This document shows positions 38,278 through 56,716 of a stretch of 64,000 bases of DNA, in pieces (the stretch's first letter is position 1; each line of letters starts with the position of its first letter). The stretch is from Tardiphaga sp. vice304 (GTDB lineage Bacteria > Pseudomonadota > Alphaproteobacteria > Rhizobiales > Xanthobacteraceae), in contig NZ_CP041402.1 in the NCBI RefSeq assembly GCF_007018905.1, positions 3,336,001 through 3,400,000 of the forward strand. The letters run 5' to 3'. The notes under the pieces were generated by a model. It was not told the origin of the DNA and made no database searches. It was given only the letters and a program-made list of their open reading frames with translations. The translations under genes and the position numbers were made by a program.

Positions 38278-38302
38278 CGCTTGTTTCCCTCGCCCCGCTC
38301 TT

Positions 38303-39568
38303 TGTTCAGCCCGGAGACATAGCTGACGCCTGTTCGGATACATCACTGACACTTTTGCTGCCGGTCAAGTCGATTTCGCCGACTTGCCGGCTTCCGAAGA
38401 ACACACCGTAGTGGCCGTCGCGGTCCTTAGGGCGGATTGCCAAGCGCTCGCCGCGGAAGGCTTTTGGCACGCGCCAAGGCCTGTTCCTGAAACTGATGCA
38501 CCGATCGTCGGAGACGCGGCGGACGATCTCGCCGTCGGCGTATTCGATCTCGGCCGGCTTGTCCGGCATCGGTCGCGCACTGGGCTTGTAGCGCGAGGCG
38601 GGAACGTCCATGTCGAGCGCCTCATGAGGGCGTTGGCAGTTGTAGACGGTGCGCCAGGCATCGCAGGCACGCTGAACCTCCAGCAGGTTGCGGAAGCGCC
38701 GCAGGGCGAACACCTCGGCCTTGAGCGTGCGGTGGAAACGTTCGTTCTTGCCGCGGCTTTGCGGATGATAGGGCCTAGCATAGATCATATCGACGCCGAG
38801 CCGCAGCAGCCAGACCCGCAGGGCTGTCCAGCGTGAGCCGCCGCTGTCACCCCATGGCGAGCCGTTGTCGACGAACAGCGCATCCGGCATGCCGTAGCGG
38901 CGGAAGGTGCAGGTCAGGTGCTGCTGCACCGTTGTGCTTTGTTCGTTGGCGCAAGCGCCGATGCACAGCGAATAGCGCGAGTGGTCGTCGATCACGGTCA
39001 GCGGATGGCTCGCCGAGCCGTTCTCCAGTGGCATGCGGCCTTTGAAGTCCATCTGCCACAGCTGGTTCGGCGCCTCCTTCTCGAACCGCCCGAGCAACTG
39101 TGCCCGCCCACCCGGCGGCGGGATGATGCGGCCGTTGCGGGACAGGATCGCATGCACGGTGGAAGTTGCCGGCGGCGACACGCCGGCGCGTTACAGGCAG
39201 GATGCGATCTTGCGCGCGCCCCACGCGGGATGGGCATCGCGCACGGCCAGCACCTGCGCCTCGATCGCCGCATCGCTGCGTCGCGGACTGACATGCGGCC
39301 GCCGCGACCGATCGGCGAACTCCGCATCGCCGGCCTTAGCCCGCTCCATCCACTTGTAGCCGGTGTCCGGGCTGATCCCAAACCGCCGGCACAACTCCCG
39401 CCGGTTGACGCCCTCCTGCCTCGCCAAAAGGGCAAACTCGCGCCGCTGATCCATCACCGACACCTCTCGCCATGGCATGGAAGCCTCCTGAAAAAGGGCA
39501 TTCCAGCCAGTATGGATGTGTCAGCTATGTCTCCGAACACCTGTCAGGGATCTGTCCGGGCTGAACAT
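38303..39568 (-). mobile_element. IS481-family insertion sequence, decayed, with doubled ends
   Basis: One interrupted transposase gene sits between inverted ends. The inner pair is TGTTCGGATACATCACTGACA (38331-38351) against the complement of TGTCAGCTATGTCTCCGAACA (39519-39539). An outer pair, TGTTCAGCCCGGA (38303-38315) against TCCGGGCTGAACA (39556-39568), flanks it. Each end thus has two related copies of a TGTTC..CTGAC unit, perhaps two transposase sites per end or one element nested in another. The outer limits are set by the outer pair. Confidence 0.65.
38306..39478 (-). pseudogene. IS481-family transposase, interrupted by one in-frame TAA
   Basis: The 5' part (39478-39194) encodes the helix-turn-helix region: MPWREVSVMDQRREFALLAR, RRELCRRFGISPDTGYKWM and HPAWGARKIASCL. 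TAA at 39191-39193 stands where the next residue should be, and the same frame continues without shift as RAGVSPPATSTVHAIL into the DDE catalytic part (WQMDFKGRMP, VDNGSPWGD, HPQSRGKNERFHRTLKAEV). So a single nonsense change inactivates an otherwise complete gene of about 390 codons. Confidence 0.85.
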
Positions 39569-39570
39569 CT

Positions 39571-39715
39571 TGCGGGGAGAGGGTGGCTCGAAGGACCGCA
39601 CGTCATTCGAGACGGGTGAGGGGCAACTAAGTGTTTCACTCGCAAGTGCCCCTCACCCCAGCCCTCTCCCCGCAAGGGCGGGGCGAGGGAGCGCGACGCA
39701 GGCGCGTCGTAGTGA
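39571..39715. repeat. Dispersed intergenic repeat, copy 2
   Basis: Carries TTCGAGACGGGTGAGGGG (39606-39623) in common with copy 1 at 14743-14760, with GAGAGGG on the left and CCCTCACCCC..CCCTCTCCCC..GGGGCGAGGG on the right, able to fold. Lies directly downstream of pxpA and next to the IS481 outer end. Confidence 0.6.
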
Positions 39716-50692: not shown

Positions 50693-51220
50693 TCAGTTGA
50701 AACTCGGGAACACGCCTTGCAGCGCGATGCAATAGGCTATCGCCAGCGTCGGTTGCACGTTGGGATGGGACTGCGATCCGCCGGCCGGGACCACGGCCGA
50801 CGTTGCAAACGTGGTGTTGGACGGCGGCGCGATGAAGCCATTGAAGCTCGGATCGATGGCGACGTTGGAGCCGCCGGTGGGACCGGGCGTGCTGTTGGTG
50901 GCAGCGGTGGTGCCGACCTGCATCGGGTGGAGATGGGCCGGCATCTCCTGCTGTGTGACCGATACCGTCGAACTGCCGAGTACGTCGCCAATGGCATAAT
51001 CGACAAGGCCAGGCCCCTGGCCCTGACTGATGGCGACACGACCGACCAGGTTGGGCAGCGCGAAAGTGGTCGTGCCGTTGCCGCCGTAGAGCGAGCCGAT
51101 CAGGGAAAACAGCGTGCTGTATCTCTGGATGGGCAGCAGGCTGCCGTCACAGAGGGCCCAGCCCTTCGGTACGAAGCCGAAGGCGAACGCCTGAATTTCC
51201 CCAATGAACGGATCGGACAT
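50693..51220 (-). CDS. Phage tail-collar domain protein 1 (MdpB-like)
   Basis: 175 residues. N-terminal collar signature MSDPFIGEIQAFAFGFVPKGWALCDGSLLPIQRYSTLFSLIG and LYGGNGTTTFALPNLVGRVAISQG, then a repeat-poor region with QEMPAHLHPM. The C-terminal VQPTLAIAYCIALQGVFPSFN motif is conserved in all three paralogues. Such proteins are found both in phage tails and as free bacterial proteins annotated microcystin-dependent. ATG 51220; third gene of the operon. Confidence 0.88.
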   Translation of the reverse strand: MSDPFIGEIQAFAFGFVPKGWALCDGSLLPIQRYSTLFSLIGSLYGGNGTTTFALPNLVGRVAISQGQGPGLVDYAIGDVLGSSTVSVTQQEMPAHLHPMQVGTTAATNSTPGPTGGSNVAIDPSFNGFIAPPSNTTFATSAVVPAGGSQSHPNVQPTLAIAYCIALQGVFPSFN

Positions 51221-51334
51221 GACAGCCTCCCTGCGATGCGCCGTCCCTGCAGGCACGAGCCATCGGGAGCGGTCGGTAGACGATGCGAGAACGCCGCCAG
51301 GCGCGTATCCACAATCCCTGGCGGTTGAAACGAA

Positions 51335-51868
51335 CTAGCTCTGCTGCGGAAACACGCCCGCCGTGCAGATGCAATAATTGCCGGTCAACGTCGGCATCAT
51401 GTTGTCATGGGACAGGTCGTCCCCGGTGATACCGATCGAAGACGCCATGACGTTATACCCGGTGACGTTGGCCAGCGGTGCGTAGGGTTGGGTCGCGGCG
51501 TTGCTGGAGGTGGCGAGGTGAACCGCGGCGCCGGGCGTGGCCGTCGTGCCGACGTTGGTGCTGGAAAGCAGGGCGTGGCCATGGCTCGGCATTTCGCCGG
51601 ACGTCAGAGTATGCCGCTCTTCACCGCCGGGTTCGCCAAGCACGCGCGTCGTCAATCCGCGACCGGTACCTTGCGATAGCGGCACACGACCGCGCAGATC
51701 CGGGACGCAGAACGTCGTGACGCCGTCGCCGCCATAGGTGGTGGTGATCAGCGTGTAGAGTACATCGTACTCCGAGATGGGTAGAGCAGCGCCATCACAG
51801 GCCACCCAGCCGGTCGGAATGCGCGGAAAACCGAACAAACGTATTTCTCCGACAAAAGGGTCAGACAT
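51335..51868 (-). CDS. Phage tail-collar domain protein 2 (MdpB-like)
   Basis: 177 residues, paralogue of its neighbours: MSDPFVGEIRLFGFPRIPTGWVACDGAALPISEYDVLYTLI, TYGGDGVTTFCVPDLRGRVPLSQG, SGEMPSHGHALLSS and the end MMPTLTGNYCICTAGVFPQQS with three extra Cys. Start ATG 51868. Second gene of the operon, separated by 114 bases from the first-listed neighbour. Confidence 0.88.
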   Translation of the reverse strand: MSDPFVGEIRLFGFPRIPTGWVACDGAALPISEYDVLYTLITTTYGGDGVTTFCVPDLRGRVPLSQGTGRGLTTRVLGEPGGEERHTLTSGEMPSHGHALLSSTNVGTTATPGAAVHLATSSNAATQPYAPLANVTGYNVMASSIGITGDDLSHDNMMPTLTGNYCICTAGVFPQQS

Positions 51869-51912
51869 CCGGATACTCCCACTGCTTCGATGAAGGGCGG
51901 CGCGACCGCGGC

Positions 51913-52446
51913 TCAAGAGCGCGACGGAAACATTCCGTTGAGCGCGATCACGTAATTGATCGTGAGGTAAGGCTGCATGTTGTTGTGCGGCTGGTTGCCG
52001 CCGGTCGGCGGGACGTTGGTCCCCGACGACAACACCACCTCGTTGCTGCCGGCCGGGGCGAAGATCAACGCGGGCGAGGTCGCGCTATTGACCCCGAACA
52101 GTTTTCCGACAGGTGGGGCAGGGCGGCCCGTAGGGCCGGCGGTCGTCGATGCCTGCAGGGAATGGGTGTGCCTCGGCAGTTGCTCGGTCGTCATGCCTAC
52201 CGTTTCCGAACCGGCGATTTCCCCCCAGGCGACCGACGTGAAATCGGACCCGACGATGGCGCGACCGCGCAGGTCGGGCAAAGCGAATGTTATCCGACCA
52301 TCGCCGCCATAGGTAACGCCAAGCAGCGAGAACAGAGCCTGGTTTTGCTGGATGGATAGAATTTGGCCGTTGCAGGCGGCCCAGCCTCTCGGGACAAACC
52401 CGAATGCTGCCGGCATGATCTGTCCGACAAAGGGCGTCAAAGGCAT
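51913..52446 (-). CDS. Phage tail-collar domain protein 3 (MdpB-like)
   Basis: 177 residues: PFVGQIMPAAFGFVPRGWAACNGQILSIQQNQALFSLLG, TYGGDGRITFALPDLRGRAIVG, TEQLPRHTHSLQAS and the shared end NNMQPYLTINYVIALNGMFPSRS. Start ATG 52446 (MPLTPFVGQI); the open frame upstream has no homology. First gene of the operon; its promoter lies in the 336-base region shared with the divergent autotransporter. Confidence 0.88.
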   Translation of the reverse strand: MPLTPFVGQIMPAAFGFVPRGWAACNGQILSIQQNQALFSLLGVTYGGDGRITFALPDLRGRAIVGSDFTSVAWGEIAGSETVGMTTEQLPRHTHSLQASTTAGPTGRPAPPVGKLFGVNSATSPALIFAPAGSNEVVLSSGTNVPPTGGNQPHNNMQPYLTINYVIALNGMFPSRS

Positions 52447-52782
52447 CGATGTACCTTCCAGGCGGCTATCGAAATAATGGGCGAAACAATGCAGGTAGCT
52501 AATACCTCCAAATATTCGCAACCTCATGAATTTTGTCAATACACCAACAACCTGAACGGGAGCGCACAAGCAGGCTGATGCCTGTCGTAGGTCGATGAGG
52601 GCGCGCAGGCGACTGTGGCCTGCACGCAACGAAATCCGACGAAGGGGATGTAACCGACGATTTTTTGGGAAAGATTGTGTCCCGCCATCTTGCAATTAGT
52701 AGGCGAATGCAGTCGTGATGCAGGTCCGCATCCATCGATTGCTGCTTACCAAAGTTAACACTCACTGAATGTCGGCTTGGGA
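52447..52782. other. Divergent control region between the tail-collar operon and the autotransporter
   Basis: 336 bases, more AT-rich than the flanks (for instance the AATACCTCCAAATATTCG stretch near 52501), with no open frame of note. It should hold promoters for both directions. No clear long palindrome or phase-variable repeat is seen. Confidence 0.5.
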
Positions 52783-55700
52783 ATGGCAAGTGCGATCCGC
52801 GCGTCAGCGTTGAGTTTCTCGGGGCGGGACGATCCTGCGGTACTCATTTTCGAGATGGGCCGAATGATGGTTTTGAAGCTGCTGCTGGCGGCAGGAAGAC
52901 GTCTCACGGCCCGTTCAATCCGAATTTTTTTCGGCTTCTCCCGGCTGCGTCCGGCGTCGGCTGGCGCACCGGCCCGATGCACAGCCGCTTTGGCCCTTTC
53001 GACAGCCGCCGCGATGCTTTGCCTAAGCAGCGCGACTGCGCAGGCAGCCTGCCAGACCTCGGTCGATTTCACCGGCAAGACCGTCGGACAATCGGTCACG
53101 CTCGATGTATCGTCATGCTCGGAACCGATCCGGGCAGGCTTGTACACGACTCTCGGTTTCGACTCCCAGACCGGTTATCCGATGGTCGGCAACCCCGGCG
53201 GCGGTACGCCGGCGTCCATCAATGGCGGCAATGGCGTTGTTTTCCTGGTCACGCCGGGCTCGACCGATGGTTCTGTCTACTTCGACTACACGATTCAACT
53301 GACAACGATGGGATCATCGAACTCGGCCAGCATCCCGCTCTTCTACGCTTCGCAAAGTTGTCCGCTTAGCGCGCCCTGTGCGTATTCATTGGCAAATGGT
53401 GGCAATGTTTACGCCATTACCGATACGTCGTATCCGATAGCGGTGACGAACCTTCCGTTGCCGCCGACGGTGACGTCGCTCAACCCGACCTCCGGTCCCG
53501 CCGCCGGGACCAATTCGGTGGTGATCACCGGGACCGGTTTTACCGGCACGACCGGCGCGGCAAGCGTCAAGTTCGGCGCCACCAACGCGACGAGTTACGT
53601 AGTGAATTCGGCGACGCAGATCACCGCCGTGGCACCCGCCGGCACGGGTACGGTCAACGTCACCGTCACCAACAACGCGGTGACCTCGGCGACCGGCGCC
53701 GGCACTCAATACACCTACCTTCCGGCACCGACAGTGACGGCGCTCAATCCGACCTCCGGTCCGGCGGGCGGCACCAATTCGGTGGTGATCACCGGCACCG
53801 GCTTCACCGGTACGAGCGGAGCGGCGGGCGTCAGGTTCGGCGCCACCAATGCCACCAGCTACGTGGTGGACTCCGCGACGCAGATCACCGCCGTGGCACC
53901 TGCCGGCACGGGCGTGGTCAACGTCACCGTCACCAACAACTCGGCAACCTCGGCCACGGGTGCCGGCAACCAGTACACCTACATCGCGGGACCGGCGGTG
54001 ACGGCGCTCAACCCGACCTCCGGCACGGTGGCGGGTGGCAATTCGGTCGTGATCACCGGCACCGGCTTTACAGGCACCACCGGCGCGGCGAGCGTCAGGT
54101 TCGGCGCCACCAATGCCACCAGCTACGTGGTAAACTCCGCGACGCAGATCACCGCGGTCGCACCTTCCGGCACCGGCGTGGTCAACGTCACCGTCACCAA
54201 TAATTCGGCGACCTCGGCGACCGGCGCCGGCAATCAGTACACCTACGTCGCAGCGCCAACCGTGACCGCGGTCTCGCCGACGGCGGGGCCCACATCGGGC
54301 GGCACGTCGGTCGTCATCACCGGCACCAATCTCAGCGGTGCCACGGCGGTGAATTTCGGGGCTACAGCGGCGGCTGGCTTCACGGTCAACAGCGCGACCC
54401 AGATCACCGCCACGTCACCGGCCGGCACCGGTACGGTGGACATCACGGTGACCACCGTCGGCGGCACCAGTGCCATTTCGGCGGCCGATCAATTCACCTA
54501 CGTCGCAGCGCCGACGGTGACGTCGATCGCGCCGACCAGCGGTCCTGCGGCGGGCGGCACGTCGGTAACTATCACCGGCACCAACCTCTCGGGCGTCAAC
54601 GCGGTGGTGTTCGGCGCTACGCCTGCGACCGGCTTCACCGTCGATAGCGCCACCCAGATCACCGCGACGTCGCCGGCCGGCACCGGCACCGTCGATGTTC
54701 GCGTCACGACCGTCGGCGGCACCAGCGCGACATCTGCGGCCGACCAGTTCACCTACGTCGCGGCGCCGACGGTGACGTCGATTGCACCGACCAGCGGTCC
54801 GACCGCGGGCGGAACTTCGGTCGTCATGGCATGCGCCGCCGTTGTCGCTGTGATCGAGGTGGCGCTTGCGACGGTGAACGTGGTCACCGCCGTGCCTCCG
54901 ATGGTTACGGCGGTCGCCCCGGTGAAATTGCTGCCGGTGATCGTCACATTCACCGGCGCGACCAGCGTGACCTTCGGCGGCACCGCGGCGACCAGCTTCA
55001 CTGTCGGCAGCGCAACCTCGATCACCGCGACGACGCCGGCGCATGCGGCCGGCGCGGTCGATATCACGGTGACGACGCCCGGCGGCACGGCGACCGGCGC
55101 CGGCCTCTACAGCTACATTGTCCCCGTCACGACCACGTCGCTCGCCTCGTCGCGCAATCCCAGCGAGGCCGGGCAGGCGGTGACCTTCACCGCGACGGTG
55201 AGCGCCAACGGCGCGATGCCGACCGGCACGGTGACGTTCAGCGACGGCGGCGTGGCGATCGGCTCCGCATCGCTGACCGGCGGCGTCGCCGCCTTCACGA
55301 CCTCGGCGCTGGCGATTGGCAACCACACCATCACCGCCGCCTATGCCGGCAACGCGAATTTCGCCGCCAGCACATCGGCGCCGCTGCTGCAGGCGGTGAA
55401 CACGCCGCAGGACAGTCTGAAACTGCGCGCGCTGCAGATCGTCGCCACCCGGACGGTGGCGCAGAATTCCGGCTCGGCGATCTCCGGCGCAATCGACAGC
55501 GCGATCGGCGAAGGGTTCAGCAATGGCGCCGGCCCGATGACGACGCCCGGTGCCGGCGGCGTGCGGTTCAACTTCTCCGCCGATCCCGACCAGGAGACGA
55601 CGACGACGGCAGAGCGCACCGTCAGCCAGCGCTGGAATGGCGACTACGGCACCGCCGCCTATGCCACACGAGGCCGGGGCGGCGTGTCGCGCGGCGAAGG

Positions 55701-56574
55701 CAACCGCGTCGATGATGCCTTCGCCGCGATCGATCGCAGCTTCGTCAAGGCCAGGGCGCCGCGGCCTCCTGTCGAACCGAAGGACTGGCTGCTGTGGGGC
55801 GACATCAGGGGCAGCGGCATCAGCAACTGGCATTCCAGCGGGCCCTCGGTGCTGTACGGCACCCAGGTCAACGGGCTGCTCGGCCTGACGCACCGGCTTA
55901 CGCCGAATTTCCTGGTCGGCGTGGTCGGCGGCTACGAAGTATTCGACTATCGCTCGGACACGCTGAACGGCCGCCTCAAGGGCGACGGCTGGACCGTCGG
56001 CTCCTATCTCGGCTGGAAGTTCGCCGCCGGGCTGCGTTTCGACGCGGCCGTCGCCTATACCGGGCTGGGCTATGACGGCACGGCGGGCACCGCCACCGGC
56101 AAGTTCAACGGTGATCGCTGGCTGGTGTCGGGCGGCCTGACCGGCAGTACCGAGGCCTATGGCTTTGCGATCGAGCCCTCGGCGCGGGTCTATGCGCTGT
56201 GGGAGCAGCAGAACGCCTATACGGACTCGCTAGGCACGCCGCAGGCCGAGCGCAGCTTCTTCACCGGCCGCGCCTCGACCGGCTTCGCCGTCGCCTATCC
56301 CTGGCTGTTCGATGCCGCGCTGACGATCTCGCCCTATGCCGGCATCTACGCCGACTATTACTTCACCGGCGACGACGCCGCCTCGGTGACGCTGGCGGGC
56401 GGCGGTGCGTTGACCTCGACGCCGTTCATCGACGGCTGGTCGGCGCGAGCCACCGGCGGCCTTGCTGCGCGGTTCGGCAACGGCGCTGCGGTCGCCTTCG
56501 GCGCCGAGCTCGGCGGCATCGGCAACAACGTGCAGATCTGGAGTTTCCGCGGGCGGGGATCGGTGCCGTTCTGA
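52783..56574 (+). CDS. Autotransporter with TIG/IPT repeats, an Ig-like domain and a C-terminal barrel
   Basis: 1263 residues from ATG 52783 (a later start near 52855-52867 is also possible). A long signal region ends AAAMLCLSSATAQA. A Cys-containing head (about 90-225) is followed by five clear IPT/TIG repeats of about 87 residues (first at 53461: PTVTSLNPTSGP..NSVVITGTGFTGT), each ending near QYTYV or QFTYV. The sixth repeat is disturbed: after GGTSVV it reads hydrophobic out-of-type sequence (54828-54948) that on the minus strand encodes a TIG half. A Big_3-type Ig domain (about 55126-55410) and an autotransporter barrel (about 55776-56574: WLLWGDIRGSG, ending in SVPF) close the protein. 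Surface adhesin or similar. Confidence 0.9.
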   Translation: MASAIRASALSFSGRDDPAVLIFEMGRMMVLKLLLAAGRRLTARSIRIFFGFSRLRPASAGAPARCTAALALSTAAAMLCLSSATAQAACQTSVDFTGKTVGQSVTLDVSSCSEPIRAGLYTTLGFDSQTGYPMVGNPGGGTPASINGGNGVVFLVTPGSTDGSVYFDYTIQLTTMGSSNSASIPLFYASQSCPLSAPCAYSLANGGNVYAITDTSYPIAVTNLPLPPTVTSLNPTSGPAAGTNSVVITGTGFTGTTGAASVKFGATNATSYVVNSATQITAVAPAGTGTVNVTVTNNAVTSATGAGTQYTYLPAPTVTALNPTSGPAGGTNSVVITGTGFTGTSGAAGVRFGATNATSYVVDSATQITAVAPAGTGVVNVTVTNNSATSATGAGNQYTYIAGPAVTALNPTSGTVAGGNSVVITGTGFTGTTGAASVRFGATNATSYVVNSATQITAVAPSGTGVVNVTVTNNSATSATGAGNQYTYVAAPTVTAVSPTAGPTSGGTSVVITGTNLSGATAVNFGATAAAGFTVNSATQITATSPAGTGTVDITVTTVGGTSAISAADQFTYVAAPTVTSIAPTSGPAAGGTSVTITGTNLSGVNAVVFGATPATGFTVDSATQITATSPAGTGTVDVRVTTVGGTSATSAADQFTYVAAPTVTSIAPTSGPTAGGTSVVMACAAVVAVIEVALATVNVVTAVPPMVTAVAPVKLLPVIVTFTGATSVTFGGTAATSFTVGSATSITATTPAHAAGAVDITVTTPGGTATGAGLYSYIVPVTTTSLASSRNPSEAGQAVTFTATVSANGAMPTGTVTFSDGGVAIGSASLTGGVAAFTTSALAIGNHTITAAYAGNANFAASTSAPLLQAVNTPQDSLKLRALQIVATRTVAQNSGSAISGAIDSAIGEGFSNGAGPMTTPGAGGVRFNFSADPDQETTTTAERTVSQRWNGDYGTAAYATRGRGGVSRGEGNRVDDAFAAIDRSFVKARAPRPPVEPKDWLLWGDIRGSGISNWHSSGPSVLYGTQVNGLLGLTHRLTPNFLVGVVGGYEVFDYRSDTLNGRLKGDGWTVGSYLGWKFAAGLRFDAAVAYTGLGYDGTAGTATGKFNGDRWLVSGGLTGSTEAYGFAIEPSARVYALWEQQNAYTDSLGTPQAERSFFTGRASTGFAVAYPWLFDAALTISPYAGIYADYYFTGDDAASVTLAGGGALTSTPFIDGWSARATGGLAARFGNGAAVAFGAELGGIGNNVQIWSFRGRGSVPF
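54828..55047. repeat. Inverted TIG-coding segment facing a direct copy
   Basis: The arm 54828-54926 read on the minus strand and the arm 54949-55047 read on the plus strand match over 99 bases at about four of five positions, with a 22-base spacer. The minus reading gives FTGATAVTIGGTAVTTFTV and the plus reading FTGATSVTFGGTAATSFTV, both TIG halves. Thus one TIG half lies backwards within the gene but keeps the frame open. Confidence 0.85.
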
Positions 56575-56626: not shown

Positions 56627-56716
56627 TGGCGGAAGGGGTGGGATTCGAACCCACGGTACCCTTGCAGGCACGGCGGTTTTCAAGACCGCTGCCTTAAACC
56701 ACTCGGCCACCCTTCC
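56627..56716 (-). tRNA. tRNA-Ser (UGA)
   Basis: Read on the minus strand from 56716: acceptor GGAAGGG pairs with CCCTTCC before the discriminator G and an encoded CCA (56629-56627). The anticodon loop CTTGAAA gives UGA, a long variable arm of class II type (GCCTGCAAGGGTACC region) is present, and the T loop is GGTTCGAATCC. About 90 bases with CCA. Confidence 0.97.

Follow-up and report, generated by a model that had tools for sequence, protein, structure and literature searches.

How can half of a TIG unit come to lie backwards inside a surface-protein gene whose reading frame stays open across it? The question is raised by an autotransporter gene of Tardiphaga sp. vice304, which we analysed within a window of 64,000 nucleotides (NZ_CP041402.1, positions 3,336,001 to 3,400,000 of the forward strand); all coordinates below are those of the window. 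The host genome is a single contig of 5.79 Mb and is 100% complete. Intragenic inversions in bacteria have been reported, and the original prediction, made from the letters of the DNA, had offered an invertible or template-switch rearrangement or an assembly foldback as the explanation.

The autotransporter gene and its inverted TIG half

According to the ORF list and Pfam, the gene is an ORF of 1265 aa (52777..56574, plus strand) with an N-terminal region, a TIG array, a Big_3_5 domain and an autotransporter barrel. The window's own protein, P0122, has 1263 aa and starts two codons downstream of the ORF start. Its protein cluster names a contig of 5,788,809 bases, 100 above the 5,788,709 of G000. 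Pfam recognised TIG in six stretches of the whole protein, and direct-repeat families D1-D3, the positions of the ITG motif and Pfam TIG together delimited five ordinary TIG units at 53464..54735 (plus strand; left edge approximate). The start-to-start spacing of these units is 264, 264, 264 and 255 nt, followed by another 255 nt to a stub (54736..54827, plus strand), which consists of the linker and first strand of a TIG unit and ends in ...GGTSVV plus AT. The stub is 92 nt long and is identical to the corresponding part of TIG5 at 78 of 92 nt. Next comes the inverted block (54828..54948, minus strand), 121 nt which correspond to the first half of a TIG unit; its minus strand reads VTITGSNFTGATAVTIGGTAVTTFTVASATSITATTAAHA, and read forward it gives residues 685-724 of the ORF. 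The last TIG unit (54949..55119, plus strand; right edge judged by eye from the protein) has neither linker nor ITG strand, and Big_3_5 (PF16640; 55144..55398, plus strand, residues 790-874) comes directly after it. The C-terminal domain is an autotransporter beta-domain (PF03797; 55795..56505, plus strand, residues 1007-1243), found by Pfam with 65.7 bits against a cut-off of 26.

A TIG half on the minus strand at 54828-54948 had been predicted, and it turned out that the minus-strand ORF 54753-55088(-) matches Pfam TIG (PF01833) with 29.3 bits (cut-off 20.9, E 8.4e-7) over profile positions 16-60 of 84, so the inverted block is a TIG half in reverse. On a profile of 167 TIG halves, which were chosen by pattern from the loci and were both the source of the profile and the halves that it scored, the inverted block reaches 59.4 bits, more than 47 of the 167 ordinary halves, while its forward reading scores 0.1. 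For the 33-residue core, the inverted arm scores 42.9 and the direct arm 54.0, with a median of 49.2 and 34 of 167 halves below the inverted arm.

The two arms (54829-54926 and 54949-55046) are 98 nt each, lie 22 nt apart and are complementary at 81 of 98 positions (83%), which agrees with the roughly 82% over 99 bases and the 22-base spacer first noted. The spacer (54927..54948, assigned to neither strand) encodes VTITGSN of the inverted unit and has no counterpart in the direct arm. When the 64-kb window was compared with itself (arms of at least 50 nt and at least 75%, at most 3 kb apart), two inverted pairs were found. The TIG arms at 54829-55046 form the stronger pair by a wide margin (E 1.8e-47); the other pair, at E 1.2e-8, consists of the two ends of what looks like an insertion sequence. 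An arm test with a distance limit of 500 nt gave 3 palindromic matches of 52-53 nt, in 2 loci, among 30 loci (L038-L067) that partly overlap and of which some have few or no TIG units. The inverted pair is genuine and beyond chance. Compared with 200 shuffles, RNA folding of 54815-55060 gives z = -12.1, and the RNA would form a strong hairpin, as any such palindrome would.

As had been claimed, the frame is preserved: the ORF runs unbroken from 52777 to 56574, with no stop in the inverted part or at either junction. At the inverted block the third codon positions of both strands coincide, and of 58 normal TIG halves taken from five array genes, 29 have no stop in the antisense frame with this codon alignment (this gene 2 of 5; L044, which is the RYN_492 orthologue, 3 of 15; L042 11 of 14; L047 7 of 14; L048 6 of 10). 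Five antisense example peptides are Ala/Val-rich, much like the forward peptide of the window. The unrelated hydrophobic stretch that meets no stop, as first described, is unremarkable and needs no special cause, since half of the normal halves are likewise open in antisense. For the same reason such flips are survivable and can be searched for systematically. In the TIG reading, 5 of the 40 codons of the inverted half end in A (binomial 0.03 against this gene). As many A-ending codons occur in 29 of 167 ordinary halves, and the codon composition therefore does not clearly point to evolution in the forward frame. An AlphaFold2 model of residues 590-875 from 5 sequences had a mean pLDDT of 39, too poor to use.

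Orthologues and relatives

The closest orthologue found is P0128, a partial protein from a Tardiphaga MAG, which is 82% identical over residues 860-1265. Ahead of Big_3_5 it carries three ordinary TIG units of the AHA type, the first of them truncated by the contig end, and in the alignment 36 residues of P0122 (686-721) have no partner. In Tardiphaga sp. RYN_492 (L041/L044) the array ends in two ordinary AHA units. The comparison with orthologues that had been suggested thus finds ordinary TIG units at the place of the inverted block in both relatives, and it supports the proposal that a rearrangement alters the surface protein. The reversed orientation, the intact frame and barrel and the ordinary units of the orthologues are direct observations.

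For the wider family, we searched the DNA of 391 genomes, own included, scoring two candidate places per genome and listing matches at E 1e-15 or better, which 31 genomes have. Among the matches listed, query positions 89-208 (the block) lie, as judged by eye, on the opposite strand to positions 210 onwards wherever both match, which is the pattern expected of ordinary units, and only the window's own genome matches straight through the block. A smaller genome sample comprised 61 genomes, own included; the sampled genomes were one per species. Across 6 loci the C-terminal part shows 59-67% identity, and across the best 120 database proteins, own protein apart, 53-82%. A search of plasmid DNA returned TIG-array matches of 60-80% identity only, none of which covers 80% of the query. 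Within the own genome, where 40 of 223 candidate places were scored, there were 7 matches, all in the array, and no second copy of the block.

At the protein level, the query was ORF residues 694-745, which take in 30 or so residues of the 40-residue block and the beginning of the last unit. Of 459 candidates, 7 proteins matched, and the one which covers the region in full is P0122 itself. The TIG/Big_3_5 autotransporter-like proteins of Bradyrhizobium, Rhodopseudomonas and Tardiphaga have the same architecture as the window protein, but unlike them the window protein carries the forward-read peptide, which among 243 proteins is found elsewhere only in P0121 and P0123. With the block peptide alone as query against these 243 proteins, P0124-P0127 were not found at E 1 or better, and three others appeared at chance level (E 0.25-0.94). 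P0121 and P0123 have the look of antisense ORFs from TIG arrays. Aligned with P0121, the antisense of the ordinary direct unit reaches 62% over 47 residues, and P0123 was assigned by its match to the forward-read block. Both are metagenome 'proteins', of 727 and 760 aa respectively. They serve as a warning that databases seem to list antisense frames of TIG arrays as proteins.

Besides, several relatives (L038-L040, of which L040 is Tardiphaga robiniae, L043, L045 and L046) have similar barrels with quite different passengers, in most of which Big_3-like repeats predominate and TIG units are few or absent. From these comparisons of sequence, the passenger seems to be rapidly exchanged among relatives.

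Origin of the reversed half

Probably a single unprogrammed micro-inversion, accompanied by flanking deletion, left this arrangement as a scar in a tandem TIG-repeat array. We infer the following order of steps, together with the donor unit and the route. The ancestral gene would have had at least one extra 'AHA'-type TIG unit directly before the last one. In the course of repair or replication, 121 nt forming the first half of an upstream unit, probably the penultimate one, would have been rejoined in reverse. The remainder of the flipped unit would have been lost together with the linker and ITG strand of the last unit, so that the stub, the reversed half and the beheaded last unit came to abut. 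The rearranged gene would then have been tolerated, with its frame kept and no stop met. An inversion with flanking deletion fits the locus because it accounts together for the reversed half, the lost remainder of a unit and the lost start of the last unit. The route may have been template switching or Ku-type end joining; Ku is encoded in the genome, which permits end joining and does not show that it occurred. As for the protein, one TIG unit is expected to be replaced by about 40 Ala/Val-rich residues without TIG character, and the last unit would go without its first strand. Probably one or two of many interchangeable spacer domains are spoiled, and export is predicted to go on unstopped.

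The main rival history, which we consider rather unlikely, is an inverted duplication by template switching, in which the last unit was copied backwards from the opposite strand and then drifted, so that the block would have begun as an exact copy of the last unit. The two arms adjoin, both have FTV.SATSI, unlike the AHA consensus, and the nearest match of the inverted arm among the compared units is the direct arm, at a DNA identity of 0.818 against a median of 0.717 and a best of 0.788 for 35 other AHA units. Template switching in coding DNA is, moreover, described for yeast (PMC8604942). An arm identity of 0.818 is nevertheless ordinary for separate units, as separate AHA units of one gene range from 0.62 to 0.94 in 7 loci, and the direct arm has two other AHA units that are as close to it as the inverted arm (0.828 and 0.818). 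The initial description called the neighbouring stretch a direct copy; the block seems instead to be a unit of its own and not a copy of the direct arm.

The distribution of changes between the arms can be read in both directions. Over 99 positions there are 18 differences, of which 12 are assigned to the inverted arm and 6 to the direct arm by the majority of the 35 other AHA units. This excess counts for a duplication, as does the longer branch of the inverted arm (0.24 against 0.085, in a poorly supported tree), both being what drift after the inversion would give. Against a duplication, the changes in the inverted arm are mostly TIG-silent, with 8 of the 12 at TIG codon position 3, a bias reached in 24 of 2000 drift simulations, and a direct arm given 18 changes keeps its TIG score in 15 of 2000 runs. 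By the TIG score alone, 241 of 2000 drift simulations equal the inverted arm, which is not significant. A silent bias would also be expected from constraint on the forward peptide, because the wobble positions of both strands coincide.

Short motifs give further marks. VT stands before ITG in 35 of 36 AHA units and in the inverted block, whereas the stub has VV, like units 1-4 of the gene, so the stub and the block probably come from different units; under a duplication the stub VV (GTCGTC) and the block VT (GTGACG) should have matched at birth. The VV mark is weakened in that VV is also uncommon in non-AHA units elsewhere (11 of 131). VTIGG is common to the inverted arm and the two upstream AHA units of P0128, and VTFGG to the direct arm and the last unit of P0128. 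Similarly, TAAHA occurs in the inverted arm and in the penultimate unit of L041/L044, the one unit to have it among 35 other AHA units compared as DNA. Neither VTIGG nor TAAHA is a strict mark, because both last units of L041/L044 read VTIGG and P0131 has TAAHA in one inner unit other than the penultimate. Over 33 residues, the inverted arm is identical to the two VTIGG units of P0128 at 27 and to the last at 25, the direct arm at 27 and 26 respectively, and the arms to each other at 27; such protein identities do not decide on the donor unit of the block. The tree built from 121 half-units, all cut without gaps, is poorly resolved; it places the direct arm in a clade of 18 (support 45) which excludes the inverted arm. 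Combined, these marks favour a unit that would have diverged as TIG before it was flipped.

An assembly error in the repetitive array is unlikely. It is suggested by the repetitive nature of the region and by the occurrence of the arrangement in one genome and one protein cluster in the searches made. The foldback that had been put forward is set aside, because two arms folded from one molecule would be expected to be almost identical, and here they disagree at 17 of 98 positions. Both junctions keep the frame, the genome is one contig and 100% complete, and the protein cluster has 6 member sequences, which are perhaps not independent or do not all include the block; all of this speaks against an error, and a local one other than a foldback is possible.

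It is very unlikely that the reversed TIG half is a selected innovation, in which antisense TIG codons, giving an Ala/Val-rich and stop-poor peptide in this frame, were captured as a new segment of the surface protein; if this were true, tandem TIG arrays could generate novel protein sequence whenever a unit is flipped.

A programmed invertible segment acting as a switch of the surface protein, to which the location in a surface-protein gene and the open antisense frame would be suited, is extremely improbable, because no exact inverted repeat of at least 9 bp joins 54780-54880 to 54900-55000 (only exact repeats were considered), recombination between the 98-nt arms would flip the 22-nt spacer only, flanking sequence appears to have been lost as would not be expected of a conservative invertase, and the recombinase search that had been proposed gave no serine or tyrosine recombinase match (PF00239, PF00589) in the 64-kb window. 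The genome has 12 serine and 27 tyrosine recombinase matches elsewhere, the nearest about 1.1 Mb and about 60 kb away, respectively, and an enzyme encoded at a distance is conceivable.

Comparison with known systems and neighbouring features

The reversed half is a genuine feature with an ordinary cause, most likely a tolerated micro-inversion in a repeat gene. It shows cleanly, in a natural case, how the tandem-repeat surface gene of a GC-rich bacterium can take up a reversed block in frame. Three kinds of known system can be set beside it. Short-range template-switch mutations (PMC8604942, PMC7954356, PMC8794818) insert or copy opposite-strand sequence beside a related stretch and change several residues at a time, and the yeast study describes arm homogenisation and spacer inversion at short inverted repeats (PMC8604942). 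The window's block is likewise opposite-strand sequence beside a related stretch; unlike them, it comprises 121 nt of diverged repeat, with flanking loss, in a bacterial tandem-repeat gene.

Invertons, including intragenic ones, resemble the locus in that a reversed DNA segment affects a surface protein. They are flanked by inverted repeats of 10-40 nt and are reversibly flipped by an invertase that is often encoded nearby (PMC11892184), unlike the block, for which neither an exact flanking repeat of at least 9 bp nor a recombinase match in the window was found. Coding palindromes in mitochondrial genes of Nematomorpha are also long inverted repeats inside an ORF. They are perfect and numerous, and both arms code for conserved protein (PMC6649704), whereas in the window one arm is an ordinary TIG half, the other gives an unrelated peptide, and the arrangement is found in one genome.

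Some neighbouring features were also observed in the window. At 38287-39583, imperfect inverted ends of 66 nt (77%) flank an ORF at 38306-39181(-), which looks like a transposase (label by eye), making an apparent insertion sequence with terminal inverted repeats. Three adjacent proteins at 50693-52695 on the minus strand, divergent from the autotransporter gene, each contain a Phage Tail Collar domain (PF07484). On its downstream side, the autotransporter gene is directly followed by a tRNA-Ser (tga) on the opposite strand, at 56627-56716 (-).
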